This document shows, one piece after another, positions 6,111-56,484 of a stretch of DNA of 64,000 nt; the first letter of the stretch is position 1; every line of letters starts with the position of its first letter. The stretch is from contig JAATFL010000012.1 of the NCBI GenBank assembly GCA_015655215.1, positions 62,001 to 126,000 of the forward strand. The letters are read 5' to 3'. The position numbers and the translations under genes were made by a program. Below the pieces are notes generated by a model. That model was not told the DNA's origin. It saw only the letters and a list, made by a program, of their open reading frames with translations, and made no database searches. The stretch comes from Coriobacteriia bacterium. Lineage in GTDB: Bacteria > Actinomycetota > Coriobacteriia > Coriobacteriales > RUG033.

Positions 6111-7816
6111 TATCTGCACCCTAAAAGGTCTGAGCCGAGGAATCCTTCGAGCTTCTCGATCTGAGAGGAGCATGCCATCTTGTAACTTTTCTTCTTTACA
6201 AAGGGCATGCCAAGGATGGTCATCTCGTAGGGCCAGGTATACCCGGTTGTCTCGCCGATGTTGGTGGCATAGGATTCCGATGCAGGGCAGAGGACGTTCC
6301 ACGTGAACCCAGCTTCAACCAATGAGGTACTGAGCATCTCCTCACCGTCTTCAATCGCCTTGTCGCGGTCGGTCGGTGTTGCTAGGTTGTTCCAGAATGA
6401 CCAGAACGCAGATGAAGAGAAGACGTTGTGGTGAAATCCGAGGAAAAACGATTGCACGTGATGTCGATGCTCCTCGGATGCGGGAAAGGCCGTGATGCCC
6501 CAGAAATCATAGGTGTCACTACCCTCATCATCCTGGTACTGCCTATCCATCGTGCTGTAGATGTGCTCGAAAGGGATGAGAGGACCAAAGCAACTGTTGT
6601 TGCAGAGGATGAGCTCGTCGAAAGAGCCGCGTGTGAGCAGGGTGCGATGGGAGAGGAGCACCTCTTGCCATGCCCCGAAATCGTAACCGACGTTATCCCG
6701 TTCGATTACCTCATCGGCATAGCGAGATGCTGTCGCACGACCCTGCGCGGAAAGGCCGCCGTTGCTGATGTAGATGATGTGCGTGGCGATTGCCGATAGT
6801 GCGGAAAGATAATGTTCATCAGCGGCCTCCACCTCACCATCGACGTTGAACGCGACGAAGAGTGCGACGCGTTCATGCGTATACGGTGCGTCGGCGGGTG
6901 CCGTGAGGTTGAAGCACTTCTTGGAGTGAAAGCCGTTCGAGCGGGCGAGGTAGGACCATGAGCGCTCGATCACGTGGGCAAGGGTGCTGTCGATCTGGTC
7001 ACCCTCTGCGTCAAAATCGAGAGCGGAGGGATACTGCCCCTCGAAAACTTGGTGTACGGCGCTCACGCGTGCCCAGAACATCGTGCCGGCAGGGAAGTCG
7101 ACGGGACCGGACGTCTGGGGGTTTGGGACGTTGAGGTCCCCAAGCAATTGGAGGATATCTTTCTGATAACGTTTCCAGTAGCGGATGTAGTTCTCGCCCA
7201 AGAGCGGGTAACGTTCAGGGTAGATGATGCCGAGGCGTGGGTCACTCTCGAACGCTTCAAATGTCTCGGCGATGTTCGCCTGGGTTCCAAAAAGGTGCCA
7301 GTAGAGATACCGCCTCCAATCATCACCCCATTCAACCGTCCCACTGTGCTTCGAATGCACGTGGCAGAAATAGTCGTATGCGGCGATATGCGGCCGCAGT
7401 TGCTCGAGGAGGGGGGCGACGTCGCGTCCGCGGTTCGCAAAGACCTCGATGGTAGTGGTTCTTGCGCGGCAGGTACCGGTGAAAGCCGAGCGGATGCGGG
7501 CGGCCTTCTCCTCGGTGTCGGTGGAGATCCAGCAATCGAACGAGTAGGGGATCTCGTTGAGGTTCCCGATCAGTTCCGGGCAGTCCTCAGGATAGAAGAT
7601 GTGCAATTGACAGGCGATGCGAGGGGTACCGTCGGCACGCTCGAAATCTGCATGTGGCTCGCTACCGTAGAAGGGGACAGGCACGGGGGCTTTCCCCTCG
7701 TAGTGGTCAAGACGGCGTTGGATGCGGTGAGGGGAGAGAAAGTTCAGGGTGACGGCGGCGGTCTCCTGGAGACCGTCTTCCGAGAGGTGCTTGAAGAATT
7801 TCCCAACCAATCCCAT
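6110..7816 (-). CDS. RgpF-family rhamnan synthesis protein
   Basis: A 568-residue protein of the RgpF family, which in streptococci takes part in assembling or decorating rhamnose-glucose polysaccharide. Two parts are visible. The N-terminal half (about residues 60-290) contains RIACQLHIFYP, FDCWISTDT, NRGRDVAPLL, VHSKHSGTVEWGD and GIIYPERYPLL. The C-terminal half contains RDNVGYDFGAW, LCNNSCFGPL and DFWGITAFP. It is a close paralogue of the gene at 10283-11944. It lies on the minus strand, opposite to the exporter and glycosyltransferases around it, and diverges from the glycosyltransferase at 8045. No transmembrane segment is obvious. The family call is firm; the exact reaction is not. Confidence 0.88.
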   Translation of the reverse strand: MGLVGKFFKHLSEDGLQETAAVTLNFLSPHRIQRRLDHYEGKAPVPVPFYGSEPHADFERADGTPRIACQLHIFYPEDCPELIGNLNEIPYSFDCWISTDTEEKAARIRSAFTGTCRARTTTIEVFANRGRDVAPLLEQLRPHIAAYDYFCHVHSKHSGTVEWGDDWRRYLYWHLFGTQANIAETFEAFESDPRLGIIYPERYPLLGENYIRYWKRYQKDILQLLGDLNVPNPQTSGPVDFPAGTMFWARVSAVHQVFEGQYPSALDFDAEGDQIDSTLAHVIERSWSYLARSNGFHSKKCFNLTAPADAPYTHERVALFVAFNVDGEVEAADEHYLSALSAIATHIIYISNGGLSAQGRATASRYADEVIERDNVGYDFGAWQEVLLSHRTLLTRGSFDELILCNNSCFGPLIPFEHIYSTMDRQYQDDEGSDTYDFWGITAFPASEEHRHHVQSFFLGFHHNVFSSSAFWSFWNNLATPTDRDKAIEDGEEMLSTSLVEAGFTWNVLCPASESYATNIGETTGYTWPYEMTILGMPFVKKKSYKMACSSQIEKLEGFLGSDLLGCR

Positions 7817-8044
7817 GAGGCGGATTCCTTTCGCTGGGCGTTTCTGGTGGACGAAGGTGAAACACAGCTCTGTCGGCCCTGTAGTATACGTTCTTGGGTA
7901 CCGCTTGTGCGTGGGACCTGGGCTTGGTCGGGGTATGGGATGCGTTCACGCCTCTTGTCCGGGCCGGTGGTGGGTGGGAAGATGGCCTATACTTCGTTAG
8001 ACGCACAACTGCTGGTGGTACGATAAAGGCGAGGAGAGCGCTAC

Positions 8045-41592: not shown

Positions 41593-43266
41593 ATGGCATT
41601 CGGGAGATCGAAGAGGGCCGAGTCGTCGGCTGATGAGTTCAAGATGGGCGTGGGCAATCCAAAGGCCAGTGCGAAGGCGATGGAGAAGCGCAATCGAAAG
41701 GCCCTGAACGAACGTACGGCCGAGGAGAGGGCCGAATCCGTATCCGATGACCAGCAGAGTCCCGTACGGGGTCGCGATTCCGATAAGCTCGATGCGAGGC
41801 ACCGCACGACGGGGGAGCGATCCGCGCGTGCAGGGTCGGGCGCCCGCGGCGCGAGGCGCCGTCGCCATCCACGTGACACGCACAACATCAAGCTCTTCGT
41901 CGTCCTGCTGTGCATCGTCGCGTTCTCCATCTTCATGTTCTACCCGCCGGCGACCAAGATCACCCAGGGACTCGATATCCAGGGTGGCCTCTCCGTCATC
42001 ATGACGGCGACGCATGCTGACAACTCGGCGGTCACCAGCGATGAGATGGATCAGGCCGTCTCGATCCTCACCGCACGCGTGAACACGCTCGGTGCATCCG
42101 AGGCGACCGTCCAGCTGGACGGCAACGATTCCGTCCTCATCCAAATCCCCGGTGTGGAGGACGCCGAGACGGCGCTCTCCACCATCGGCGCGACCGGCAC
42201 GCTCGAGTTCGTCGACCTCGACAACATCACGGACCAGAGCGAGGTCACGGCCATCGAGAACGGCCAGACCGGCCAGACGCTCGACTCGTCCACGTACACC
42301 GCCTTCATGACCGGGGATTCCATCACCAAGGTGTCCGTCGGCCAGGAATCGACGGGAAGCGCCTACTACGCGGTCAACCTCACCCTCGATGGCGATGGCA
42401 CCAAGGCGTTCTCCGACACCTCCACCGCCTTGTACCAGACCAAGGGGCAGATCGCCATCCTACTCGACGGCGTCGTGCAGAGCGCACCGGCCGTGGAGTC
42501 GGCCATCACGAACGGTCAGGTCGCGATATCGGGCAACTACACCCTCGATTCGGCCAAGAACCTGCAGACCATCCTCGAGTCCGGTGCGCTGCCCGTGACC
42601 CTGACGTTCTCCCAATCCCAGGTCGTGGGCCCGACGCTTGGTCAGCAGTCGCTCACCGCGGGCGTGCTCGCCGCGGGTGTTGGCATGCTCGTCGTGATGA
42701 TCTACCTGCTGTTCTTCTATGAGGGGCTCGGCGTGCTCACGGCGGCGAACATGGGCGTGTTCGCCGCACTTTATCTGGGCATACTTGCGACACTCTCGCA
42801 TTTCGGTCTCTTCGCGCTCTCGCTGTCAGGACTGGCGGGCATCGTGCTCACCATCGGAATGGCAGCCGATTCCTCGATCCTGGTGCTTGAGAGATTCCGA
42901 GAGGAGATACGCATGGGACGCTCGGTCAAGGCTGCTTCGATCACCGGCGTCAAACATGGTATCGGAACCTCCATCGACGCCGATGTGGTCACCTTCGTCT
43001 CCGCCATCGTCCTCTTTGCCGTCGCCGTCGGTTCGGTCAAGGGCTTTGGCCTCACGCTCGCGCTCGGCATCGTCTGCGACATCATCACGATGCTGCTCTT
43101 CAAGGCACCGGCCATCCGTCTGCTCGCTCCTGGCCAGATAGCTCGCCATCCGGGTTTCTGGGGCATCAAGGGCGACCTTGCGGAGGGCGAGAGGATCGCG
43201 GCCGCCAACGGGGTTCGCACCGCGTCCAGAGCCTCCAAGAAGAAGGGGGGTGCTGCGAATGCGTAG
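41593..43266 (+). CDS. secD: Protein translocase subunit SecD
   Basis: A 557-residue membrane protein that uses the proton gradient to help the Sec channel release proteins outside. The core has six membrane segments, the first domain motif KITQGLDIQGGLSV after the first segment, and the RND-type LTIGMAADSSILVLERFREE. Before the first membrane segment lies a 95-residue charged extension rich in Arg, Ser and Glu, which most SecD proteins lack. It overlaps secF by eight bases. Confidence 0.93.
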   Translation: MAFGRSKRAESSADEFKMGVGNPKASAKAMEKRNRKALNERTAEERAESVSDDQQSPVRGRDSDKLDARHRTTGERSARAGSGARGARRRRHPRDTHNIKLFVVLLCIVAFSIFMFYPPATKITQGLDIQGGLSVIMTATHADNSAVTSDEMDQAVSILTARVNTLGASEATVQLDGNDSVLIQIPGVEDAETALSTIGATGTLEFVDLDNITDQSEVTAIENGQTGQTLDSSTYTAFMTGDSITKVSVGQESTGSAYYAVNLTLDGDGTKAFSDTSTALYQTKGQIAILLDGVVQSAPAVESAITNGQVAISGNYTLDSAKNLQTILESGALPVTLTFSQSQVVGPTLGQQSLTAGVLAAGVGMLVVMIYLLFFYEGLGVLTAANMGVFAALYLGILATLSHFGLFALSLSGLAGIVLTIGMAADSSILVLERFREEIRMGRSVKAASITGVKHGIGTSIDADVVTFVSAIVLFAVAVGSVKGFGLTLALGIVCDIITMLLFKAPAIRLLAPGQIARHPGFWGIKGDLAEGERIAAANGVRTASRASKKKGGAANA

Positions 43267-44176
43267 CTATCTTCGCCACGAGGTCGACTTCATCGGCCTG
43301 CGCAAGATATTCTTCATCATCTCCGCCGTCCTCATCGTCATATCGCTCGCCTCGCTCGCCACCCGGGGTCTTAAGTTGGGCATCGAGTTCCAAGGTGGCA
43401 CCTCGATCGACTTCCAGGACACCGGCAACATCACCACCGAGCAGATACGCAGCGCGTTCGACGTGGCGGGCGTGACCGCCTCCTCCGTACAGACCACGCA
43501 GACCAACGGCATCGACGGCTTTCTGGTACGCACTGCGGAGACGAGCCCTGATATCGCCAGCGGCACGGCGACCACCGTCGCCGACTCGCTTGGACTCTCC
43601 TCCGACTCCTTCCAGGTGACCACGATCGGTCCGGAGTGGAGTACGAACATCCTGCAGAGTTCGCTGCTCGCGTTCGTCATCTCCATCCTCGCCATCATCG
43701 CCTACATCGCGATCCGATTCGAATACAAGATGTCCCTCACCGCGGTGATCGCCCTCTTTCATGACCTCATCATCGTCGTCGGCATCTACTCGGTGACGGG
43801 ACGCGAGGTCACACCCAACGTGGTGGCCGCGTTGCTCACCATCCTCGGTTACTCCCTGTACGACACGGTGGTCGTGTTCCATCGCATCAAGGACAACGCG
43901 AATCCCGAGGGGAGCCACTCGTTTTTCTGGATCGCAAACCATTCGATCAACCAGGTGTTCACCCGCACCATCAACACCACGCTCACGTCGCTTCTCCCCG
44001 TACTGTTCATGCTGCTCTTCGGCGGTGCGACCCTCAAGGACTTCGCCTTCGCGATGACCTGGGGCCTGGTGCTGGGTTCGTACTCGTCCATCGGCATCGC
44101 CGCACCCCTGTTCACGCTCTGGAAGTCGCGTGAGCCGCAATACAAGCGTCTTGCGAAGAAGTACGACGACAAGTGA
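43259..44176 (+). CDS. secF: Protein translocase subunit SecF
   Basis: A 305-residue partner of SecD with six membrane segments. It has the first-domain motif GIEFQGGTSIDF, the SecF signature GYSLYDTVVVFHRIKDN and TRTINTTLTSLLPVL. The ATG at 43259 overlaps the end of secD, consistent with translational coupling and complex formation. An extended hairpin follows. Confidence 0.95.
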   Translation: MRSYLRHEVDFIGLRKIFFIISAVLIVISLASLATRGLKLGIEFQGGTSIDFQDTGNITTEQIRSAFDVAGVTASSVQTTQTNGIDGFLVRTAETSPDIASGTATTVADSLGLSSDSFQVTTIGPEWSTNILQSSLLAFVISILAIIAYIAIRFEYKMSLTAVIALFHDLIIVVGIYSVTGREVTPNVVAALLTILGYSLYDTVVVFHRIKDNANPEGSHSFFWIANHSINQVFTRTINTTLTSLLPVLFMLLFGGATLKDFAFAMTWGLVLGSYSSIGIAAPLFTLWKSREPQYKRLAKKYDDK

Positions 44177-44182
44177 GGGCAA

Positions 44183-44213
44183 CGTACCGGCGTGCGGTGT
44201 GAGCGCCGGTACG
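44183..44213. terminator. Hairpin after secF
   Basis: CGTACCGGCG at 44183-44192 pairs perfectly with CGCCGGTACG at 44204-44213 around an 11-base loop. No T-run; probably a terminator or mRNA-stabilising hairpin. Confidence 0.5.
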
Positions 44214-44303
44214 ACGAAGGCGTCGGGGGGCGTTGATTGCACGTCGCTTGGATGCCAGCCCCGGGTCTGGGCATTCGGCTTCGATGATGGAAGGTTCGGC
44301 CAT

Positions 44304-47300
44304 ATGGATTCGAGGAGCACGAGGACCTGTTGCTGGAAACTCAAGGCGGCCGACGAGGACCGAGTCTCCCAAATCGAGGCGACCTGCGGCCTGCCCCATC
44401 TCGTCGCGCGCACGCTGGTCGCACGCGGGGTCGACACGCCGCAGCTCGTGAGCGAGTTCTGCAACCCATCCCTCGATCGCAGCTGGGCGGATCCGCTGGC
44501 GATTCCCGGCATGCGCGAGGTGGCCGATGAGGTATGGGCCACCATGCAGCGTGGCGAGCGCATCGCCGTCTTCGGCGACTTCGACGTCGACGGCATCACC
44601 GCGACGGCACTCCTCACCCGGGGGCTTCGCGCCCTTGGTGCCGATGTGACCCCCTTCGTGCCCACGCGGTACGGCGAAGGCTATGGTCTCTCCCCCGAGG
44701 CTCTCGATCGCGTGCTCGAGAGCGACCCTGCGCTCGTCATCACGGTCGACAATGGCATATCCGCAGCTCAAGAGGCCCGTATCCTCGCTCGAAGAGGCGT
44801 CCGCCTCGTCGTCACCGACCATCACGAGCCCTCGAACCTCGTCCCCCAGGGGGTTCCCGTCGCCGACCCGAAGCTCATACCCGATGGTCCATCGAGGGAA
44901 CTCGCCGGCGTGGGCGTCGCACTCAAGCTCGTGTGCGAGCTGGGGGATAGGGCGGGGGAGGAGGACCTGTGGCGGGAGTTCACCGACCTGGCCGCCCTCG
45001 GCACCGTCGCCGACATCATGCCGCTCACCGAGGAGAACCGCGCGCTCGTCGCCGATGGCCTCGCACGTATCAACCGCAACCCACGTTCGGGCTTCTCGGC
45101 GCTGGCGGCGCTCGCCAACACCTCGACGAAGACCCTGTCCGCCGAAGACCTCTCGTACACGCTCATCCCACGCATCAACGCCGCGGGCCGTGTGGGTGAC
45201 CCTGCCGTCGCGTTGGGGCTCTTCCTCACCGACGATCCCGATGTCGTCGACGAGACCGCGCATCTCCTCGAGGACATCAACACGCGTCGTCGCGCCCTCG
45301 AGGTCGAGCTCGACGGGCAAGCCCGCGCGCAGCTCGCGGTGACGTACCATGGCGAGCGCGCCCTCATCCTTGCGGGAGAGGGATGGCACGAGGGTGTCAA
45401 GGGCGTGGTCGCCTCGCGTCTCGTGGGCACCTATGGCGTCCCGACGATCCTGTTCACCGTCAAGGATGGGGTGGCGAGGGGCTCGGGACGGAGCATCGGC
45501 TCCATCAACCTGTTCGAGGCCGTCTCGGCATGCTCGGATCTGCTCGAGCGCTTCGGCGGGCACGAGATGGCGGTGGGCCTCACCCTCCCGGAAGAGAGCC
45601 TGCCCTCGTTCCGCACGCGTTTCCTCGCTCAGATGGACGCCCTCTCCCCTCGCGCGTTCGAGAGCGTGCGCGAGGTCGATGCATCGGTGGGGCTCGAGGA
45701 GCTCACCGTCGATGCCATCGACGCGATATCGTGTCTCGAACCCTTTGGCCAGGGCATGCGTGCGCCGCTCCTCGTGGTGGAGGACGTCTTCATGACCGAC
45801 CAGGGGAGCGTGGGTCGTGATGGCGACCATCTGCGCTTCACCGCAAGCGATGGTCGCTCCAACGTATCGGCGATCTACTTTCGCTGTCCGGACATGGAGC
45901 GTATGCTCTCGTGCGACCAGGCCGTCGACGTCGTGTTCGAGGCTCAGGTCAACGAGTGGCGCGGACATCGCAACCCCAAGATGCTCGTGCGCGCCGTCGA
46001 GACGCACGACTCCCTCCACGCCATCGATGGCAGCTGCATCGGGAGCCCCCTGGGGGCCGATGCCGATACCGGGGAGGATGTAGGGGGTCTCGTCGACTCC
46101 CCTGCTCCATCCGATGGCACGGCCACCACCATGGCATCCGTCGACGACCCCACTCTGGGGACCGAGGAGCAGTCGCTCGTCGAGCGACTGGTGGAACGGG
46201 CCGACGACTACCTCGTCGCCGATCCCTACGCGGGCATCGAACAGGCTTCCTCGTTTCACACCAAGGTGGCGGGCGTCACCTTCGAGGGACGTCAGGAGCT
46301 CATCGCCCAGTTGCGAGCGGGCGATGAGTTGGAACTGGCGAGAGACCACGCAAATCGGTTCGACCCCAACGCGGTTGCCGTCTTGGCCCCTGTCGGGCAG
46401 GTGGGGTTCCTCAACCGCCGGCTTGCCGAGAAGATCGCGCCCGTTCTCGACGCGGGCGCGTCATATCGCGCCTGCGTCGAGAACGTGACCGGTGATGACA
46501 TCCCCGCCGAGGTCATCACCTCCCCTCCTGGTCACGCCATCCTGCAATCCGATCGCAGTCGGGGGCTCAACGTCATCGTGTCCCGCACCGATGCCGTCGC
46601 CGAGCAGGCTGCCCATGCAGCCTCGGGGGCAGCGGTCGCCAAGGCGCGTCTCTCACAGCTCGCGGCCCCACAGTTGACGGATGCGCTTCGTCAGACCCTC
46701 ATCGGCGAGCGGGCCCTTCGCCCATCGCAAGCGGAGACGCTCGCGCATCTCGCCCGTGGCGAGTCGACGCTCGCCGTGATGGCCACGGGGCGCGGCAAGT
46801 CCCTTATCTTCCATCTTCACGCCGCCCGCACCGCCTTGCACGAGCACAAGGCGAGCGTCTTCGTCTATCCGCTGCGTGCCCTGGTGACCGACCAGATCGA
46901 GCACCTCTCCGACACCTTCGAGGCCCTTGGCCTTGACGTGTGCACGCTCACCGGCGATACGCCCGCGGAGGAACGCGCTCGCGTGTTCGATGCCCTGGCC
47001 GATGGATCGGTCGGCGTCGTGCTCACCACGCCCGAGTTCCTCGACCTTCACGCCGCTCGCTTCGCGGCCACCGGCCGCGTGGGCTTCCTCGCCGTGGACG
47101 AGGCGCATCACATCGGCATGGCGCGCGCCGGCCATCGCCCGTCGTACGGACACTTTCCCGCCATCCGGGCGACGCTCGGGAACCCGGTGTGCCTTGCCGT
47201 CACGGCGACGGCGGGATATGACATCGCATGTTCCATCGACGAGGCGCTCGGCATCACGGCACACGTGCTCGACCCATCGGCTCGCTCCAACCTCGACCTT

Positions 47301-48233
47301 GCCGATGGGCGCGGCGCGCGACCCCATCGATCCCAGATGCGCGATCTCTACCTCGCCTCGCTGGTCGCACATGGCGAGAAGACCATCGCGTACGTGAACT
47401 CGCGAGAGGGGGGCGTCCGCATCACGCGCATGTTGCGAAAGCGGGTGCCCCAATTGGCGCGGCAGATCGCCTACTACCATGCGGGTCTGCCCAAGTCGGA
47501 CCGCCTGGCGGTCGAGCGGGCCTTCAGGGAGGGGGAGGTGACCACCCTCGTCGCCACCTCGGCGTTTGGGGAGGGGATCGACATCCCCAACGTGCGCAAC
47601 GTCGTCCTCTATCACCTACCCTTCTCCGACGTGGAGTTCAACCAGATGTCGGGTCGGGCGGGGAGGGATGGTCGACCATCGACGATCCATCTTCTGTTCT
47701 CGGCGCAGGACGCGTCGATCAACGAGCGCATCCTCAGGGCCGGGGCGCCAAGTCGAGAAGATCTCGCCACGTTGTACCGGACGCTACGCCAGGCGGCCGA
47801 CGAGGGTGCGATCGGACTGGCCGCACCCGCGCCCACGGATGCCCCAGGTGTCTGGGCCGCCCCAACCCGAGACGTCACCGACGTCCACGTTCCCTCATCT
47901 GCGCCGCCGCTCACCAACGAGGACATCGTCGCGCGCTGCCTTGGGGCAAAGGCGCGCTGCGGACTCGACGTCCATGGCGTCTCCGGCGGTTTGGCCGTGT
48001 TCGCGGAACTGGGTCTCGTCGTCGTGCGGGGAAGGGGGCCGGCGCGCCGGATATCGTTGGTCCGTGGTCCGCAGCACGTCGACCTCGCGCATTCGACCCG
48101 GTATCTCGAAGGTCATGGAGAGCTCGACGAGTTCTCCGCCTTCAGGGAATGGGTGCTCGATTCGCCGGCAGACGACCTGCTCGCGCGCATCAATCGGCCT
48201 ATCCTACCGTTCCCTTCTGTTACGGAGACCTGA
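44304..48233 (+). CDS. RecJ-HIRAN-RecQ fusion: single-strand exonuclease joined to a superfamily 2 helicase
   Basis: A 1309-residue protein with three parts. Residues about 30-575 are RecJ: the DHH motifs GDFDVDGIT (91-99) and DHHEP (172-176), then DHHA1 with GSGRS near 393-397 and FGGHEMAVGL, and an OB domain. After a low-complexity linker (about 580-645), residues about 654-735 form a HIRAN domain, with RFDPNAVAV and VGFLNRRLAEKI. From about 790 on is a RecQ-like helicase: Walker A ATGRGKS (827-833), DEAH box (932-935), FGEGIDIP, and motif VI QMSGRAGRDGR (1114-1124). No RQC zinc cysteines are seen at the C-terminus. The ATG at 44304 follows GGAAGG. RecJ digests 5' ends unwound by RecQ in RecF-pathway resection, so this is probably a one-chain end-resection enzyme; that is inference. 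Confidence 0.9.
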   Translation: MDSRSTRTCCWKLKAADEDRVSQIEATCGLPHLVARTLVARGVDTPQLVSEFCNPSLDRSWADPLAIPGMREVADEVWATMQRGERIAVFGDFDVDGITATALLTRGLRALGADVTPFVPTRYGEGYGLSPEALDRVLESDPALVITVDNGISAAQEARILARRGVRLVVTDHHEPSNLVPQGVPVADPKLIPDGPSRELAGVGVALKLVCELGDRAGEEDLWREFTDLAALGTVADIMPLTEENRALVADGLARINRNPRSGFSALAALANTSTKTLSAEDLSYTLIPRINAAGRVGDPAVALGLFLTDDPDVVDETAHLLEDINTRRRALEVELDGQARAQLAVTYHGERALILAGEGWHEGVKGVVASRLVGTYGVPTILFTVKDGVARGSGRSIGSINLFEAVSACSDLLERFGGHEMAVGLTLPEESLPSFRTRFLAQMDALSPRAFESVREVDASVGLEELTVDAIDAISCLEPFGQGMRAPLLVVEDVFMTDQGSVGRDGDHLRFTASDGRSNVSAIYFRCPDMERMLSCDQAVDVVFEAQVNEWRGHRNPKMLVRAVETHDSLHAIDGSCIGSPLGADADTGEDVGGLVDSPAPSDGTATTMASVDDPTLGTEEQSLVERLVERADDYLVADPYAGIEQASSFHTKVAGVTFEGRQELIAQLRAGDELELARDHANRFDPNAVAVLAPVGQVGFLNRRLAEKIAPVLDAGASYRACVENVTGDDIPAEVITSPPGHAILQSDRSRGLNVIVSRTDAVAEQAAHAASGAAVAKARLSQLAAPQLTDALRQTLIGERALRPSQAETLAHLARGESTLAVMATGRGKSLIFHLHAARTALHEHKASVFVYPLRALVTDQIEHLSDTFEALGLDVCTLTGDTPAEERARVFDALADGSVGVVLTTPEFLDLHAARFAATGRVGFLAVDEAHHIGMARAGHRPSYGHFPAIRATLGNPVCLAVTATAGYDIACSIDEALGITAHVLDPSARSNLDLADGRGARPHRSQMRDLYLASLVAHGEKTIAYVNSREGGVRITRMLRKRVPQLARQIAYYHAGLPKSDRLAVERAFREGEVTTLVATSAFGEGIDIPNVRNVVLYHLPFSDVEFNQMSGRAGRDGRPSTIHLLFSAQDASINERILRAGAPSREDLATLYRTLRQAADEGAIGLAAPAPTDAPGVWAAPTRDVTDVHVPSSAPPLTNEDIVARCLGAKARCGLDVHGVSGGLAVFAELGLVVVRGRGPARRISLVRGPQHVDLAHSTRYLEGHGELDEFSAFREWVLDSPADDLLARINRPILPFPSVTET

Positions 48234-48359
48234 GGGTAACCGCCCTATACTGATGAGGGATGTTCTTTGTATAGTGCAATCCGACGTCGCAGTCGCATCG
48301 AGCACGTAGGGATTGGGTGCGTGCCGAGAGGTCGAACGATGATTCGAGGGAGGTGCTGT

Positions 48360-50753
48360 ATGGGCACGCAGGATGGTTCGAAGACGAGGGCTCCCGCCGT
48401 CCCCGTCGACAAGGCGGCCGATACCCCCACCGAGAAGCCTGCCGTCGACGTCTCGCCCACCACGTCGCTTGCCATCGCGTCGGGTCCGGGCACCGTCGAG
48501 CAAGGGTCGAGTGGGTCCCGTGAGGCGAGCGCCTTCCCCACCGGTTTCCCGGACAACTTCCCCAAGGTCATGGAGACCGCCTCGTCGTATCTCGCGGAAG
48601 CCGACCTCGACCAGGTACGTCGGGCCTACGAGTTCGCTCGCAAGGCGCATAGCGGCCAGTTCCGAAAGTCGGGTGAACCCTACATCATCCATCCGGTCGA
48701 GGTGGCGCTCATCTTGGCTGACCTTCGGATGGATGTCGACACGCTCACGGCTGCCCTTCTCCACGACACGGTGGAAGACTGCTCCGTCACCCTCGACGAG
48801 GTCACCGAGGCGTTCAGCCCCATCGTCGCCGAGCTCGTGGATGGTGTGACCAAGATATCGCGCCTTGAGATCGAGAGCCTTTCCGAGGAGCAGGCCAACA
48901 ACCTGCGCAAGATGCTGATCGCGATGTCCAAGGACATCCGCGTCATCGTGATCAAGCTCGCCGACCGCCTCCACAACATGCGCACGCTCATGGCGCTGCG
49001 CGAGGACCGGCGCATCTTCAAGGCACGCGAGACGATGGAGATATACGCGCCGCTCGCGCACCGCCTGGGCATCTCGTCCATCAAGTGGGAGCTCGAGGAC
49101 CTCTCCTTCTTCTATCTGGAGCCGGCCAAGTTCCAGCAGGTCTCCAAGATGGTGGCCGAGTCCCGTCGAGCGCGCGAAGAGTACCTCGAACAGGCATCGC
49201 AGCTCCTCGAGGCGGAATTGAGTCGCGTCGGCATCTCGGCGCAGATATCAGGGCGCCCCAAGCATCTCTACTCCATCTACCAGAAGATGACGCAGCGTGG
49301 CAAGGACTTCTCGGAGATATACGATCTCATCGCCCTGCGCCTGATCGTGGACTCGATCAAGGACTGCTATTCGAGCCTTGGCGCCGTCCACACGCTGTGG
49401 CATCCCATGCCGGGACGATTCAAGGACTACATCGCGATGCCCAAGTTCAACATGTACCAGTCGCTTCACACCACGGTGATCGGCCCGGCTGGCCGACCTC
49501 TCGAGATACAGATCCGCACGCAGGAGATGCATCGGATGAGCGAGTACGGCGTGGCGGCGCACTGGCGCTACAAGGAGGGGAGCGACCCCCGTACCGCGCA
49601 CTTCGACGAGCAGCTCTCGTGGTTGCGCCAGATGATCGACTGGGAGTCGGAGACCAAGGACCCCAAGGAGTTCATGGAGAGCCTCCGCATCGACCTTTTC
49701 GACGCGGAGGTGTTCGTCTTCACGCCGAAGGGCCAGGTCATCAGCTTGCGTGCGGGCTCCACGCCCATCGATTTCGCCTACGCCATCCACACGGAGGTGG
49801 GCAACCGCTGCGTGGGTGCCAAGGTCAACGGTGCCATCGTCCCGCTCAGCTACGAGCTGCAGATGGGCGATCGCGTCGAGATCCTCACGCAAAAGTCGTC
49901 CACACCCTCGCGCGACTGGCTCACCCTCGTCAAGACGCCCGGCGCCCGCTCGAAGATCCGCTCGTATTTCTCGAAGGTCACCCGTGGAGACGACATCCTG
50001 CGGGGACGCGAGCAGATGGCGCGCGAGATGCGCAAACACGGCATCGGGATGTCGACGCCCGTCTTCACCCGTTCGGTACGCGACCTCGCCAAGGAACTGA
50101 GCTACCCTACCGATGACGACCTGATGGCCGCGATCGGCACCGGCAAGATCTCGGCACGTCAGATAAGCAACCGCCTGCTGCGCGTGCTCGTCAAGGACTC
50201 GGAGGAGGATGCGGCGGCTAGGATGCCTCCGCTCGCGTTGAACGCCCCCATGACGCCGCCGCATGCGGCGCATCACAAGCCCTCGGGCACGGGTGTGGTC
50301 GTGAAGGGCGTCGACGACGTGCTCGTGCGTCTGTCGCATTGTTGCAATCCGGTGCCAGGGGATGAGATCGTGGGATTCGTCACGCGGGGGCGCGGAGTCT
50401 CGGTACACCGGGCCGACTGTCCCAACGCCAAGAGCCTCATGTCGACCCCGGAGCGCGCGATCGAGGTGGAGTGGGAGGCGGGCGCGGCGACGTCCTTCCA
50501 GGTGGAGATCATCGTGGAGGCGACCGACCGCCTGCGCCTGCTCCAGGACGTGACCATCGTGCTGGGAGATGGCGGTGTCAACGTGCTCGCCAGTTCGACC
50601 ACCTCGCACCGTGATGGGTTCGTGGAGATGCGCTTCCTGTTCGAGGTGTCTGCCACGGAGCGTATCGACCGCATCCTCAGGGACCTCAAGAACGTCGAGG
50701 GCGTCTTCGAGGCGCGGCGCATGCTACCGGGGCAAGCTTCGAAGAAGCACTAG
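48360..50753 (+). CDS. rel: Bifunctional (p)ppGpp synthetase/hydrolase Rel
   Basis: A 797-residue stringent-response enzyme. The hydrolase HD domain includes HPVEVALILADL near residue 110 and an intact LLHDTVED near 132, so hydrolysis should be active. The synthetase domain follows (GRPKHLYSIYQKM near 298), then TGS (VFVFTPKGQVISLRAGSTP near 450), a zinc-finger-like region with LSHCCNPVPGDEIVG, and a C-terminal ACT domain (from about 714). The first 60 residues are Ala/Pro/Thr-rich and not part of the core. ATG 48360 has GGGAGG upstream. A TATAGT at 48270-48275 is a weak promoter candidate. Confidence 0.95.
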   Translation: MGTQDGSKTRAPAVPVDKAADTPTEKPAVDVSPTTSLAIASGPGTVEQGSSGSREASAFPTGFPDNFPKVMETASSYLAEADLDQVRRAYEFARKAHSGQFRKSGEPYIIHPVEVALILADLRMDVDTLTAALLHDTVEDCSVTLDEVTEAFSPIVAELVDGVTKISRLEIESLSEEQANNLRKMLIAMSKDIRVIVIKLADRLHNMRTLMALREDRRIFKARETMEIYAPLAHRLGISSIKWELEDLSFFYLEPAKFQQVSKMVAESRRAREEYLEQASQLLEAELSRVGISAQISGRPKHLYSIYQKMTQRGKDFSEIYDLIALRLIVDSIKDCYSSLGAVHTLWHPMPGRFKDYIAMPKFNMYQSLHTTVIGPAGRPLEIQIRTQEMHRMSEYGVAAHWRYKEGSDPRTAHFDEQLSWLRQMIDWESETKDPKEFMESLRIDLFDAEVFVFTPKGQVISLRAGSTPIDFAYAIHTEVGNRCVGAKVNGAIVPLSYELQMGDRVEILTQKSSTPSRDWLTLVKTPGARSKIRSYFSKVTRGDDILRGREQMAREMRKHGIGMSTPVFTRSVRDLAKELSYPTDDDLMAAIGTGKISARQISNRLLRVLVKDSEEDAAARMPPLALNAPMTPPHAAHHKPSGTGVVVKGVDDVLVRLSHCCNPVPGDEIVGFVTRGRGVSVHRADCPNAKSLMSTPERAIEVEWEAGAATSFQVEIIVEATDRLRLLQDVTIVLGDGGVNVLASSTTSHRDGFVEMRFLFEVSATERIDRILRDLKNVEGVFEARRMLPGQASKKH

Positions 50754-50937
50754 GCGACAGGCATTCTCCTTGGACGTGAAAGAGCAGGGTGAGGCACTTC
50801 TCGCTGATGGGGTTTCTCCTGGTATCCCCTCCTGCCCGGGGAGTGACGCGGTCGATCGTCGCCATCGATGCGTGGTATCATCGACAGGTATGGATACTGT
50901 GGCCGCATGGGGTTTCATGTGCGCGAGGGATGATGCC

Positions 50938-53900
50938 GTGAGTTGCTCGATGAGCCAGGATAACGCACGGGGCTTCACGCTGATGGAGATGCTCGTCTCC
51001 GTCGCGATCATCGCCATCCTCGCCGCCATCGCGATCCCCCTGGTGGCGAACCTCAACACCAGCCTGAACATGCTCAAAGCCGATTCGTACGCCAAGGAGA
51101 TCTACTATGCGGCGCAGAATCGGCTCGCCTCCATGGAGGCGACGGGGGAGCTCGACCAGCTGACGCTTCCCGACGCCGACAAGCTTACCGTCGAGCCGGC
51201 CGACTACGCGCAAAACGCCGGTAGCGACGTGGACGACGGATGGCAGAGCCTCTATCGCCTCGATAGCGATGGAACGGATGACGACGCGGTCGTGAGTCGG
51301 ATCATGGATGCCGCGAGCGTGAGCGACGGCGCAATCGGCACGGGAAGCTACATCATCGAGTTCTCCCCCTCGAGCGGGGAGGTCTACAGCGTCTTCTACT
51401 CGGAGAAGACCGATCTGACCTATGGCGACGTACGGGCGCTCGACGAGGGACAGGGCGGTCGGAGCAAGGCAAACCGCACCTCCGGACTCATCGGGTATTA
51501 CTGCGGGGGCAGCATCAGGGTCGTCGGCACGTCCGTCAAGCTCACGCCCACGGTCTCCCTCGTCAACGCCGAGGAGCTGTACGCCCACATCACCTGCGAT
51601 GGCAGCCCTCTGTCTGCCGGCGTCTCCAAAGAGCTCACAGCGACACTCACCTTGACCGATGAGCAGAGCGGTAACTCGTGGTCGAAGGATATATCGACCG
51701 CTTTCCTGACGGACGGCACGTCGGAGGAAGACGTCGTGCTCGATAGCATGCAAACCGGTGAATCGTTCGCCCAGATAACTGATGCGAATGGCGATGGGGC
51801 CACCATATCCGCCGGCGAGATCGCCCCTGGGGACGATGTCACGGCAACGGTGACGGTGAGATACAAGGGCAAGGGCACCATCGCCACGGCGACCTCGAAC
51901 ACGGAGAACAGCCTGTACCAGAGCCTTGGCGTCGAGGACGGCATCCTCACGGCCAAGGTCGCCAACGTCAGGCAGCTTGACAATCTCCGGGATGGCACGT
52001 GTTCGGCGGTCAAGGGGAGCTTCGCCAAAGTCGTGCAGACGGGCAGCATCGACTTCGATGCGACCACGTGGAGCGTCGATGCTGCAGGAGACGCGCCGCT
52101 TTCGTCCGGCACCATCGCCTGGAACAAGGCGAACGTGGCGGGGTGCCCTGACACCGGTTACGTCAACCCGTTGGGCGCGGGCATCGGCGATGGAGGTGCC
52201 GATGGGTTCACACCCATCAGCGCCATCGCAACGCAGTGGTCGTACGATGGCCAGGGCAACTCCATCAGGAACCTCTACGTCGTCGGCGCGCAGACCATCG
52301 GATCGACCAGTACCGGAACGGGGCTCTTCGGCACCATGACCGGTGCCATCTCCAACATCGTCCTGGTGGATCCGGTCGTCATAGGCGGTACGTACACCGG
52401 CGCCCTCGTCGGCAGCATGAAGGGACCCGCCGTCACCAACTGCGGTGTCTATCTGGAGCCCGACTCCGCGGGGAGCTACAGTGCGGTGACGGCTCGATGC
52501 ACGGTATCCGCATACGACGGCTCCGTCTGCGTGGGTGGTCTCATCGGGGACTGTGGAGGTGCTACCGTCACCACGTGCTTCGCCGCCATCAACGTGCTTC
52601 CCGTCGCCAACGGCTCCATCACCGAGACGGGAGGGCTGATCGGCCGGTTCCTCACGGAGAGTTCCAGTGCGATCTCGAATTCCTATGCCTCGGGCGATGT
52701 CACCGCATCGAGCGTTGCCGGGGGACTTGTCGGAGAGGTCTATGGCGCATCGCAGCAGGCCTGGGATACGCAGAGCGGCATATCGGACTGCTACTCGACG
52801 TCGGACGTCACCGCCGACACCCGCGGTGGTGGACTCATCGGTGAGAGCCTCTCCACACGGCCAACCATCACGGGCAGCGCGGCATATGGTTACGTGACCA
52901 CTTCGAGCGGTGATCTCGACCTCCAATCCTCCGGTGGGTTCATCGGCTATGACGGCGCTGGCGGGGCAACCCTCGTTGGCTGCTCATATCTTTCCCAGAC
53001 CGGTTACAACGATAGCTACGCCAACCCCTGGGACGGTGCGGGTCTTGCGGCCACGTCCTACGATGACATGGCCAACGCTGCGACGAACACGTTGACCGCG
53101 GCCAACAGCCACCCATATGACAGCGCGCTCGCCTCCACGGCCTTTCCCTTCACGCCCGTGCTGGCAAACCACTATGGGGACTGGCCGGTGAAGGTAGAGG
53201 TGAAGCCGACGCTCGTCTACTACGAGAAGTACCAGCACACGTCCTCGGACGATACGGTCACGTACTCGTACGGCTACTATGCCGCCAACACGAGCACCGC
53301 AAGCGCCAGCAGCCTGGGGGAGCTGGCGCTCGACACCCTGGAGACCGGCGAGGCGATGGCCGCAAGCGGTGACATCGTCGTCGAGGATGGCTATGCGCTC
53401 ATGACGAGCTCGGCGGTCGACAGCGGTGCCATCGGCTACTCGCTCAACGGCGGACAGTCCTCAACCTTCCAGGTCAGCACCACGCCGACCGACGATGCCA
53501 ACACCCTGGTGGCCCTGACGTCCGCTCCGGTGCCGCTCACGCTCACCTCTACCGGCGATGCATCCACGGCCGTCACGCAGGCCTATCTCTATCAACTCCC
53601 CTTCGCCTTGCAGGAGCCGGACCGTACGTCAGGGTCATCGAGCTTCTACGATGACCTCACGCTGACGATGCCCTCGCAACAGGTCTACACGTACTACTAC
53701 TGCGGGGACTTCGCCGAGACGTCCATCAACCCGGATGCGAACGGGTCCACGTCGGCACCGAAGGCGGGGGATCTCACGGTCCTGGTCCGCAGCGCGCGCC
53801 AACTCAACGCGCTCGGCCAACGGGACTTCTATTGGAACACGGACAACAGCAACGGTTGGACCCTTCGTTTCGAACAGGGCTGCGACATCAGCTTCTCCGA

Positions 53901-54906
53901 TTACGTCACGACCTACTGCAGCCAGCCATTCGACCTGACGAGCACCACGGGCACGTATGGCAACAAGCCCATCGGCACGGTGGATGACGCCTTCAGCTTC
54001 GACTACGACGGCGGCACGGTCGCCGTGCGTGACTACAACCATGACGCGGTCTCCGCCCCTGATGCCGGCTATGAGATACGGGACTACTGCCTTGTGTCCG
54101 GCGACCAGTTCGTCGGCTTGTTCGGCGAGGCGTCCGGCGGCACCATCGGCAACGTGCACCTGACATCGTCGACGACCGGGACGGCCTCGGCATCCGTGGT
54201 CTCGACGTACAGCGCGACGGGTGCCTCGGGAACGGGTGCCGTGGGTGCGCTCGTGGGACTCCTCTCCGTCTACTCGGGCAGCACCGGAGCGCAGGTGTCG
54301 AACTGCAGCGTCGTGGGGTACCGGGTGGAGTTCACCAACGACGATGCGAGGGGGCATACGGCCATGGACTCCTATAACGCCGCGGCCGGCGGCCTGGTCG
54401 GGTACAACATGGGCGTCGTGAGCGGCAGCCTGGCCGACAACTACGTCGTCCGCATCACGGCGTTCAACCAGAAGGCTCCGTTGGAGTCCATCGGCGGTCT
54501 GGTCGGGTCGAATGCCGGGACGATCGCCAACTCGACGGTTCTCAGCGATCGCGTCCCCTCCGGCGCATCCGAGCTCCAATATCGCGTCAACACCGGGACG
54601 TCCAAGGCGACGGTGAGTTTCGGTGGCATCGCGGGACGTTACTATGCCCAGTGGACGGATGTGACCCTGACCGCCTCGATCTCAGGCAGCACGTCCCGGT
54701 GCATCATGACCAGCGCTGCGGCCGCGGCCGGGACACAGGGAACCGTCGAGTACTACGGCATCGCCAACGGCGCCACGGGCAATATGGGCAACACCGGCAC
54801 CTACGGCAACTCCTTGAAAGGCTACGCGATCGATGCGACCAACGCCTTTAACAGAGGACTCATCTTCACCACGACGCCCGATTCCTCACGGGGGACCCTC
54901 CGATGA
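50938..54906 (+). CDS. Giant prepilin-like surface protein with GLUG-type repeats
   Basis: A 1322-residue protein that begins as a type III-signal prepilin: 12-residue leader ending in Gly, then FTLMEMLVSVAIIAILAAIAIPL with Glu at +5 of the mature protein. After the roughly 60-residue pilin helix is an exported beta-rich region with two similar blocks. Each starts with a RQLDNL or RQLNALG motif (near residues 342 and 950) and leads into GLUG-like repeats such as GGLIGDCGGATV, GGLVGEVYG and GGLVGYNMG. No membrane anchor or sortase motif is present at the C-terminus. I choose the GTG at 50938 because GAGGGA lies 7 bases upstream; the frame is open upstream to 50569. It overlaps the next minor-pilin gene by four bases. 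Likely a pilus-associated adhesin; this is inference. Confidence 0.8.
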   Translation: MSCSMSQDNARGFTLMEMLVSVAIIAILAAIAIPLVANLNTSLNMLKADSYAKEIYYAAQNRLASMEATGELDQLTLPDADKLTVEPADYAQNAGSDVDDGWQSLYRLDSDGTDDDAVVSRIMDAASVSDGAIGTGSYIIEFSPSSGEVYSVFYSEKTDLTYGDVRALDEGQGGRSKANRTSGLIGYYCGGSIRVVGTSVKLTPTVSLVNAEELYAHITCDGSPLSAGVSKELTATLTLTDEQSGNSWSKDISTAFLTDGTSEEDVVLDSMQTGESFAQITDANGDGATISAGEIAPGDDVTATVTVRYKGKGTIATATSNTENSLYQSLGVEDGILTAKVANVRQLDNLRDGTCSAVKGSFAKVVQTGSIDFDATTWSVDAAGDAPLSSGTIAWNKANVAGCPDTGYVNPLGAGIGDGGADGFTPISAIATQWSYDGQGNSIRNLYVVGAQTIGSTSTGTGLFGTMTGAISNIVLVDPVVIGGTYTGALVGSMKGPAVTNCGVYLEPDSAGSYSAVTARCTVSAYDGSVCVGGLIGDCGGATVTTCFAAINVLPVANGSITETGGLIGRFLTESSSAISNSYASGDVTASSVAGGLVGEVYGASQQAWDTQSGISDCYSTSDVTADTRGGGLIGESLSTRPTITGSAAYGYVTTSSGDLDLQSSGGFIGYDGAGGATLVGCSYLSQTGYNDSYANPWDGAGLAATSYDDMANAATNTLTAANSHPYDSALASTAFPFTPVLANHYGDWPVKVEVKPTLVYYEKYQHTSSDDTVTYSYGYYAANTSTASASSLGELALDTLETGEAMAASGDIVVEDGYALMTSSAVDSGAIGYSLNGGQSSTFQVSTTPTDDANTLVALTSAPVPLTLTSTGDASTAVTQAYLYQLPFALQEPDRTSGSSSFYDDLTLTMPSQQVYTYYYCGDFAETSINPDANGSTSAPKAGDLTVLVRSARQLNALGQRDFYWNTDNSNGWTLRFEQGCDISFSDYVTTYCSQPFDLTSTTGTYGNKPIGTVDDAFSFDYDGGTVAVRDYNHDAVSAPDAGYEIRDYCLVSGDQFVGLFGEASGGTIGNVHLTSSTTGTASASVVSTYSATGASGTGAVGALVGLLSVYSGSTGAQVSNCSVVGYRVEFTNDDARGHTAMDSYNAAAGGLVGYNMGVVSGSLADNYVVRITAFNQKAPLESIGGLVGSNAGTIANSTVLSDRVPSGASELQYRVNTGTSKATVSFGGIAGRYYAQWTDVTLTASISGSTSRCIMTSAAAAAGTQGTVEYYGIANGATGNMGNTGTYGNSLKGYAIDATNAFNRGLIFTTTPDSSRGTLR

Positions 54907-55709
54907 AAAGCCGCATGGGCAGGATGTCGCGCAAGCTTTCCGGCAACCAGGGTGCCTCCATGGTCGTGGCTCTCCTCTTCTTCGCTCTCTGTGCATCGGT
55001 GGCAGCCGTCATCCTCATGGCGGCATCCACCAACGTGGACAGTACATCACAGCAACGCGATGACGACGAGGCGTATCTTGCGGTGAGTTCCGCGGCGCAG
55101 ATGCTCAAGGCGGACCTCGTCGGTCAGGATCCCTCGTATTCCGTATCGGTCAGGACCAAGGTCTACAGCTGTGGCTTGCCGCATGGTGACGGGGGCGTCC
55201 AAGCGGGATTCCCCGTGGTGACCTTCGCGGCCGCCGGTGGAGGTGTTGTGCAGAGGACGCCGCTCATGGTCGTCATGCAAGACGGCATCACCGCGATCGT
55301 CAGCGGTGCATCCGAATACTCGACGACGCTCATCGTGTCGGCCGACGACTTCGAATCGGTGACCGCCACGCTCGCCATGGACAACGACTTCGACATCACG
55401 ATCACGTTGGAACCATCGGCGGCGGATTCGTACTCCCCGTACACGATGACCCTATCGGCTACGGCAACGCCATCCGCCACCGCCACCACGGACACATCGG
55501 TTACCGAAGACACCAACCCCCATGATGCGAGCGCGAGGGTCTGGGTATGGGCGAGCACCGTATCCTATTACGAACGCACCCAATCCAACGAGGGCAGGGA
55601 TGGCTATGGTTCCTACCAGGTGGCCACCACGGGCTACACGGCGACCACCGTCACCGAATCGTTCGGCGTAACGTGGGCCAACGTGGCGCTTTCGAAGGGG
55701 GCGGCGTGA
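54903..55709 (+). CDS. PilX/GspK-like minor pilin component
   Basis: A 268-residue protein with a short basic leader and a hydrophobic helix (about residues 18-38, beginning ASMVVALLFF) after a Gly at 17. The Glu at +5 of normal pilins is absent, as in GspK and several PilX-type proteins that cap the pilus. The remainder is Thr/Ala/Ser-rich beta-type sequence. It overlaps the giant pilin-like gene by four bases and is followed within two bases by another minor pilin. It probably belongs to the tip complex. Confidence 0.65.
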   Translation: MKSRMGRMSRKLSGNQGASMVVALLFFALCASVAAVILMAASTNVDSTSQQRDDDEAYLAVSSAAQMLKADLVGQDPSYSVSVRTKVYSCGLPHGDGGVQAGFPVVTFAAAGGGVVQRTPLMVVMQDGITAIVSGASEYSTTLIVSADDFESVTATLAMDNDFDITITLEPSAADSYSPYTMTLSATATPSATATTDTSVTEDTNPHDASARVWVWASTVSYYERTQSNEGRDGYGSYQVATTGYTATTVTESFGVTWANVALSKGAA

Positions 55710-55710
55710 C

Positions 55711-56484
55711 ATGATGAAATCAGCGCGATCGCGCGTGCTCTCCAGTGCGGGGGAGAGTCTCGTCGAATCCCTCGCCGCATTGCTCATCTGCTCGATGGCG
55801 ATCGCCTTGCTCATGGGTGCGGTCGTGACGGCGGCCAAGATCAACTCCACGGCGATCACGGCACAGGAGACCCTCGAACGTGCGCAATCTGCCGCAGAGT
55901 CCTACACATCGACGAAATCAAGCACCCGTGCGGTATCCGTGACGACGCAGGATGGGGAAACGTCATTGGGCACGTACACCGTCATTTACTATGGCGAGGA
56001 CCAGAGTGGCCTTGCGGACTCGCTCGTCGCCTACAAGTACGGTGGCGCTTCCGCCCCGAGCTACCTTGCCGGCGCCCAGGCGTTGGTCGCCTCCAATCCC
56101 ACCACCTATGCGTCCACCGATGCCGGGACGAAGGCGCTGTCCGCGGCATATGCGAGAGCCTACGGGGGAGAGTTCCCAAAGCTCACCTCAGCCGAGCTCG
56201 CGCTCTCCACGGCAGCGGTCCCGTCCACGTACTGGAAGCCCATCCATGCGAGCAACGGGGCGTTGATCCTGTGCGCGACCACCACCACCGCATCGGTCTC
56301 GACGGGTACGTCCGCGGCCCAGAACACGGTTCTCATCTACTACGATGGGACGTATTACGCGTACCTGAACCCCCTACACGGCGATAAGTCGATGTGGATC
56401 GGCAATGGCTCCTTCGACGTCTCGATACTCGGCAACCCCACCCGGACCGATGTCTATGGCCAGTGGTGGAAGGCGGTGTCATGA
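55711..56484 (+). CDS. Minor prepilin with a non-standard +1 residue
   Basis: A 257-residue protein whose N-terminus MMKSARSRVLSSAG is followed by ESLVESLAALLICSMAIALL, a typical pilin helix. If cleavage occurs after Gly14, Glu sits at mature +5 as required, but +1 is Glu and not Phe or Met. The rest is a Ser/Thr/Tyr-rich globular domain. It is coupled to the next minor pilin gene (ATGA overlap) and resembles a GspI-type tip subunit by position. Confidence 0.65.
   Translation: MMKSARSRVLSSAGESLVESLAALLICSMAIALLMGAVVTAAKINSTAITAQETLERAQSAAESYTSTKSSTRAVSVTTQDGETSLGTYTVIYYGEDQSGLADSLVAYKYGGASAPSYLAGAQALVASNPTTYASTDAGTKALSAAYARAYGGEFPKLTSAELALSTAAVPSTYWKPIHASNGALILCATTTTASVSTGTSAAQNTVLIYYDGTYYAYLNPLHGDKSMWIGNGSFDVSILGNPTRTDVYGQWWKAVS

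Follow-up and report, generated by a model that had tools for sequence, protein, structure and literature searches.

RecQ and RecJ are the textbook helicase-nuclease pair, cooperating as separate proteins: RecQ travels 3'-5' along one strand, and the strand it displaces is digested 5'-3' by RecJ. Here we analyzed a gene in which a RecJ core, a HIRAN domain, and a RecQ-type helicase are joined in one chain. It is located at positions 44304 to 48233 of a 64,000-nucleotide stretch of a Coriobacteriia contig (JAATFL010000012.1, positions 62,001 to 126,000), which is referred to below as the window. Several described systems resemble parts of this protein. (i) The bacterial RecJ proteins (TIGR00644; Escherichia coli, Thermus thermophilus, Deinococcus radiodurans) share the DHH-DHHA1-OB core with all catalytic residues, and their genes lie near secDF and relA, but they have no HIRAN domain or helicase, and the E. 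coli type stops after the OB domain. For the tail of D. radiodurans RecJ, HHpred yielded no homologue; this tail was shown to interact with HerA (PMC4663267). (ii) Bacillota RecJ proteins with PF10141 (ssDNA-exonuc_C, e.g., in Paenibacillus) have a C-terminal domain that appears related to the RecA2 lobe and C-terminal domain of the fusion, whereas RecA1, all superfamily 2 (SF2) motifs, and HIRAN are gone. (iii) RecQ (TIGR01389/TIGR00614) shares the SF2 core and the motif 0 region and provides the best sequence and fold matches, but the helicase of the fusion scores below the RecQ cutoffs and lacks the zinc cysteines, the HRDC domain, and the aromatic-rich loop. (iv) HLTF/Rad5 likewise chains a HIRAN domain with the conserved N-x-x-D pocket motif to an SF2 motor; in the fusion, however, this motor is of the RecQ and not the SWI2/SNF2 type, there is no RING domain, and a nuclease is present. 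(v) WRN combines a RecQ helicase and an exonuclease in one chain, but its exonuclease is DnaQ-like and acts 3'-5', unlike RecJ. (vi) AddAB/RecBCD follow the same principle of a coupled motor and nuclease, but with unrelated SF1 helicases and PDDEXK nucleases, and they coexist with the fusion in the same genomes. In our search, which was limited to open-licence PMC articles and thus provides a weak absence, we found no relevant paper on RecJ fused to RecQ, on HIRAN in combination with RecJ, on RecJ tails resembling a helicase, or on RecJ/RecQ of Coriobacteriia; the fusion and an origin of RecJ tails as helicase relics are apparently undescribed in the literature searched. We consider it probable that RecJ in a large group of bacteria descends from an ancient RecJ-HIRAN-RecQ-type fusion, which is kept whole in Coriobacteriia and a few other Actinomycetota families and has decayed elsewhere, in Actinomycetota and Bacillota (PF10141), to a tail of RecA2 and a winged helix that lacks the motor.

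The open frame extends from 44130 to 48233 on the forward strand; translation from the ATG at 44304 gives 1309 residues with zero internal stops and a stop at 48233. The gene is present as a single copy in its source metagenome-assembled genome (MAG; 1.70 Mb, 78.7% complete). An original prediction, made from the nucleotide sequence, had proposed the three-part layout, and Pfam indeed places DHH, DHHA1, RecJ_OB, HIRAN, DEAD, and Helicase_C in this order in the chain, each above its cutoff. The features of the protein are as follows.

44304..48233, forward strand: RecJ-HIRAN-RecQ-like helicase fusion, 1309 residues (reading frame, Pfam, class-wide conservation)
44559..45005, forward strand: DHH domain, residues 86-234 (Pfam, 71.7 bits)
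45360..45623, forward strand: DHHA1 domain, residues 353-440 (Pfam, 50.0 bits)
45675..45992, forward strand: RecJ_OB domain, residues 458-563 (Pfam, 81.6 bits)
45993..46223, forward strand: variable linker, residues 564-640 (mostly gaps in the homologue alignment)
46254..46496, forward strand: HIRAN domain, residues 651-731 (Pfam, 39.0 bits; gathering cutoff, 24.7)
46719..47216, forward strand: helicase RecA1 lobe, residues 806-971, with TGRGKS and DEAHH (Pfam DEAD, 74.6 bits)
47361..47672, forward strand: helicase RecA2 lobe, residues 1020-1123, with TSAFGEG and QMSGRAGRDG (Pfam Helicase_C, 93.6 bits)
47886..48221, forward strand: winged-helix-like C-terminal domain, residues 1195-1306, without a Pfam family (conserved in homologues)

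Sequence matches in the PDB were RecJ for residues 11 to 567 and RecQ-family proteins for residues ~790 to 1156. The RecJ third scores above the curated cutoff of the equivalog TIGR00644 for RecJ (463.5 against 396.9 bits), and D92, D94, D96, D149, D172-H173-H174, D237, and G418-G419-H420 were invariant in an alignment of 30 homologues; D237 sits just beyond the end of the DHH match. Judged by its sequence, the RecJ half is a complete core with an intact set of catalytic residues, for which the family predicts 5'-3' single-strand exonuclease activity. The best NCBIfam helicase models for the helicase third were those of recQ, yet the scores were below the RecQ cutoffs (173.8 against 640.2 for TIGR01389 and 170.9 against 219.8 for TIGR00614). 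The motifs TGRGKS, PLR, DE-HH, TSAFGEG, and Q..GR.GRD were invariant in the 30-sequence alignment, and a RecQ-type motif 0 region is present. Both catalytic cores thus have intact motifs, as had been proposed. The suspected lack of the RQC zinc cysteines was also borne out: no RQC or HRDC match to Pfam was found in the 1309-residue protein, and no cysteine in residues 1140 to 1306 was conserved across the fusions compared. Its motifs and closest matches mark the helicase as divergent but related to RecQ, with a working-looking core. The ratio of nonsynonymous to synonymous substitution rates (dN/dS) in eight pairs, where only pairs carrying a given domain were counted for it, ranged from 0.02 to 0.38 in RecJ, HIRAN, RecA1, RecA2, and the C-terminal domain; every domain of the fusion is therefore under purifying selection. 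The dN/dS of the linker was mostly above that of the domains and was the highest in most pairs compared.

An AlphaFold model of residues 785 to 1309 (mean predicted local distance difference test [pLDDT], 89; predicted template modeling score [pTM], 0.83) comprises both RecA lobes, two paired helices, a unit with the order helix-helix-strand-strand that is similar to a winged helix, and two helices at the end. Its best PDB matches in Foldseek were RecQ-family helicases, and alignments with RECQ1-type structures span the helix-helix-strand-strand unit at high root mean square deviation. The model of a 1198-residue HIRAN-bearing homologue (pLDDT, 88.9; pTM, 0.72) matched RecJ best, followed by RecQ; a Foldseek comparison of the full-length model with Staphylococcus aureus RecJ (8y30) aligned ~568 columns, the tail being outside the comparison. 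Every form of the fusion has the winged-helix-like domain after the helicase; no PDB chain was found with the profile of this domain alone. The original prediction had overlooked this domain (~1195 to 1306), as well as the spread of the fusion through the class and its canonical recJ locus.

All of the 300 sampled genomes of the class matched the fusion, and the recJ frames listed were nearly all of 1000 to 1390 residues. When another 55 divergent genomes were sampled, both halves were found in one frame across the class, the exceptions being breaks at contig ends and one real loss, which is discussed below. The hosts are Coriobacteriia of gut and sediment; in the contig set of GTDB, the relatives with names were Coriobacteriia and related MAGs, among them the cultured Parafannyhessea umbonata, Olsenella porci, and Kribbibacterium absianum. 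Three Actinomycetota families beyond the class (f31, f84, and f93) also have the three-part protein in intact form. The gene order queA-tgt-secD-secF-recJ-relA is common across the class and is partly shared with the intact fusions outside it. In the window, the syntenic neighbors are the following.

41593..43266, forward strand: secD
43178..44176, forward strand: secF
48267..50753, forward strand: relA/spoT

This shared order shows that the fusion is the orthologue of the ordinary housekeeping recJ and no extra gene. The trees of the RecJ and helicase parts were congruent (Mantel r of 0.81, compared with 0.38 for the best of 500 permutations; 26 of 51 splits shared), which fits a single fusion event followed by vertical inheritance; these were quick likelihood trees without bootstraps, rooted on an assumed outgroup. 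Phyla beyond Actinomycetota were sampled via plasmid and chromid records only.

In other Actinomycetota families, RecJ extends ~250 to 370 residues beyond the OB domain. A profile of the RecA2 lobe plus C-terminal domain of the fusion detected such tails with 59, 40, 35, 30, 28, 27, and 27 bits, and profiles of RecA1 and HIRAN gave no match in the Actinomycetota tails. Profile-profile comparison of the tails with the same region of the fusion resulted in a probability of 98.9% (E of ~2e-17; score, 134), compared with scores of at most 19 in the controls (20 column-shuffled and one reversed). The P-loop, motif V, and motif VI were kept by none of the Actinomycetota tails. Most tail-only recJ genes adjoin relA, at the same locus (loci L217 to L236, e.g., L217:2682-5267). 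In the tree of RecJ cores, the tail-only proteins occupied at least three places among the intact fusions, as expected if the whole helicase came first and then decayed repeatedly. Matches extend to Bacillota: the region of Paenibacillus RecJ covered by PF10141 (residues 581 to 794; 71.4 bits) was also matched by the Actinomycetota tail profile (31 bits; E of 8e-10) and by the C-terminal-domain profile of the fusion (20 bits), and the latter matched the RecJ of Vescimonas (Clostridia), whose gene adjoins relA, with 22 bits. Among 2100 shuffled tails, the highest scores were 5.6 bits with the C-terminal-domain profile and 12.2 bits with the tail profile. In a six-frame scan of the loci, the matches listed were RecJ-linked proteins, and four genuine RecQ-type proteins were not among them.

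PF10141 itself matched intact fusions and tails weakly, in a consistent register; among intact fusions, the highest score shown was 20.5 bits, under the gathering cutoff of 26.4, and no match above the cutoff was found in 297 Actinomycetota genomes. The proposed homology of PF10141 to the fusion rests on the tail-only profile and on the direct matches of the C-terminal-domain profile. The tail-only profile retrieved no significant PDB chain, only winged-helix proteins below the threshold, and no sequence link to the tail (domain IV) of D. radiodurans RecJ was found. In their profiles, the Actinomycetota tails and PF10141 of Bacillota look like motor-less helicase relics consisting of RecA2 and the C-terminal domain, and the intact fusion would therefore be the ancestral form. 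If so, poorly understood C-terminal domains of RecJ would originate from a RecQ-type motor, and their job is predicted to be the docking of DNA or protein without ATPase activity; the fusion matters more for this origin than as a local curiosity.

The HIRAN boundaries of the original prediction (residues 654 to 735) were right, and neither of the two findings that it had named as refuting was obtained: the HIRAN match lies above the cutoff, and the fusion is unbroken in hundreds of genomes. In 39 HIRAN-bearing fusions, K654, G657, R663, Q664, N684, D687, A690, and G701 were all invariant, position 660 was aromatic in 38, and position 686 was H, Y, or F in 33. The HIRAN pocket of HLTF sandwiches a dinucleotide between Y72 and Y93 (PMC4666394); in our alignment, N684, D687, and the aromatic position 660 appear to correspond to this pocket, and the family thus predicts a binder of 3'-OH single-strand ends. 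Of 120 genomes, 66 had HIRAN as part of the fusion; 5 of these belong to the order of the window, and 61, which is every matching genome of the other orders, do not. HIRAN was also present in 16 members of the 30-member fusion set. The lineages outside the class are among the HIRAN-bearing forms in the tree, and the distribution of the domain needs at least six changes, which we read as losses within Coriobacteriales with retention of the helicase and C-terminal domain. That HIRAN stands in for the RQC DNA-binding module, as originally suggested, is rejected, because it was lost several times while the helicase and its winged-helix-like domain stayed; HIRAN is thus an ancestral accessory part of the fusion. 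A separate HIRAN protein, mostly of 110 to 175 residues, was present in about half of the sampled Coriobacteriales without HIRAN in the fusion (e.g., G043:C9:7625-7909, G025:C20:214699-214941, and G109:C1:564743-565003) and was rarer in genomes whose fusion retains the domain; these small proteins may reflect either compensation or mobile elements.

As to function, we favor with somewhat less assurance than the ancestry the view that the fusion is the intact-form housekeeping RecJ of Coriobacteriia, in which a 5'-3' exonuclease, a RecQ-type 3'-5' helicase, and a HIRAN 3'-end sensor act in a single chain to widen gaps. At a processed end or a gap in the daughter strand, HIRAN would dock on the single strand at its free 3'-OH end; the helicase would load on the neighboring template strand, travel 3'-5' toward the downstream fragment, and peel off its 5' end; and the RecJ active site in the same chain would digest this end 5'-3', so that the gap is widened for RecA loading (RecFOR/RecA pathway). 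Gap widening is proposed because helicase and nuclease would run in the same direction in a gap, with the HIRAN ligand (3'-OH) at its other edge. The two polarities, the 3'-end binding, the coupling, and the gap or fork substrate are all predictions from the families involved, and processing of gaps or forks of the RecFOR type appears likelier than main double-strand-break resection. Such a natural chain of nuclease, helicase, and 3'-end-binding domain offers a system for testing physical coupling in resection, in which HIRAN-less fusions and one helicase-less form serve as natural controls.

Four observations weigh against this functional view. (i) In one genome (G008; L079, G008:C6:365000-380000), the RecJ frame (6236-7948, 571 residues) ends just past the OB domain, and a relA frame follows directly downstream. 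This is a clean loss of the helicase, with RecJ alone being kept, and the fusion is thus not indispensable; the G008 protein is a natural nuclease-only control. (ii) The aromatic-rich loop, which in RecQ couples DNA binding to ATP hydrolysis, is free of W and F after motif II (DEAH) in 52 of 54 fusions, whereas the genuine RecQ proteins in this class retain it as WG(H/N)DFRP. Because of this loss, unwinding may be weak or differently achieved. (iii) A separate genuine RecQ (matching all or most of TIGR01389) was found in 26 of 60 class genomes, in 18 of them over the cutoff; the other 34, including the single-contig genomes G003, G004, and G057, speak for the functional view, the fusion being the sole RecQ-type helicase shown there. 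(iv) PF12705 matches, usually two close together, were present in 58 of the 60 genomes and in all 50 high-completeness ones, in a pairing expected for the PDDEXK nucleases of a putative AddA/AddB.

Given the loss of the loop, a non-processive motor is a serious rival. The helicase half might mainly be a regulatory or DNA-clamping module that remodels single-stranded-DNA-binding protein (SSB) or positions RecJ, without processive helicase activity. The lack of a zinc-binding RQC and of HRDC is compatible with this, as is the persistence elsewhere of RecA2 and the C-terminal remnant on RecJ, which suggests that an attached module is useful without an ATPase. Walker A, DExH, motif V, and the arginine-finger motif VI are, however, invariant in intact fusions, and the low dN/dS of RecA1 and RecA2 argues for selected ATPase activity; we regard this rival as unlikely, at perhaps one chance in a handful. 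Much less likely still is that the fusion replaces RecBCD/AddAB as the principal double-strand-break end-resection machine. The MAG of the window has neither a PF12705 nor a full-length RecQ match, but it is incomplete, and its near relatives have AddAB-like pairs; besides this MAG, only a 59%-complete genome was without PF12705. Because such pairs occur class-wide, it is improbable that breaks are resected by the fusion alone, and the term "end-resection machine" of the original prediction was too specific. That the fusion acts against phages, or is a mobile helicase-nuclease of another kind, is very unlikely: defence systems do include fusions of a helicase with a nuclease, and many of these genomes encode small separate HIRAN proteins, but the fusion is class-universal and vertically inherited at the fixed secD-secF-recJ-relA locus, and no plasmid record carries it. 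An assembly or frameshift artefact joining two genes, conceivable for a gene from a single MAG contig, is refuted: hundreds of independent genomes have the same unbroken frame, and cultured strains as well as single-contig genomes are among them.

Other RecQ-like helicases without a RecJ match were observed in frames of 1173 to 1264 residues (G011:C2:2091-3248, G014:C7:8031-9185, G022:C35:2115-3188, and G025:C1:27495-28589). A distant RecJ-like DHH phosphoesterase (~23% identity) is encoded on many ~84-kb Bacillus subtilis plasmids (e.g., NC_021809.1, 64346-65848). In the window, relA is followed by a frame for a very large protein (50569-54906, forward strand) in which residues 132 to 156, counted from the beginning of the frame, form a type IV pilin N-methylation motif; because of the position of this motif, translation probably begins near 50960, downstream of relA. 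Two open reading frames without a Pfam match (54903-55709 and 55711-56484) are located downstream.

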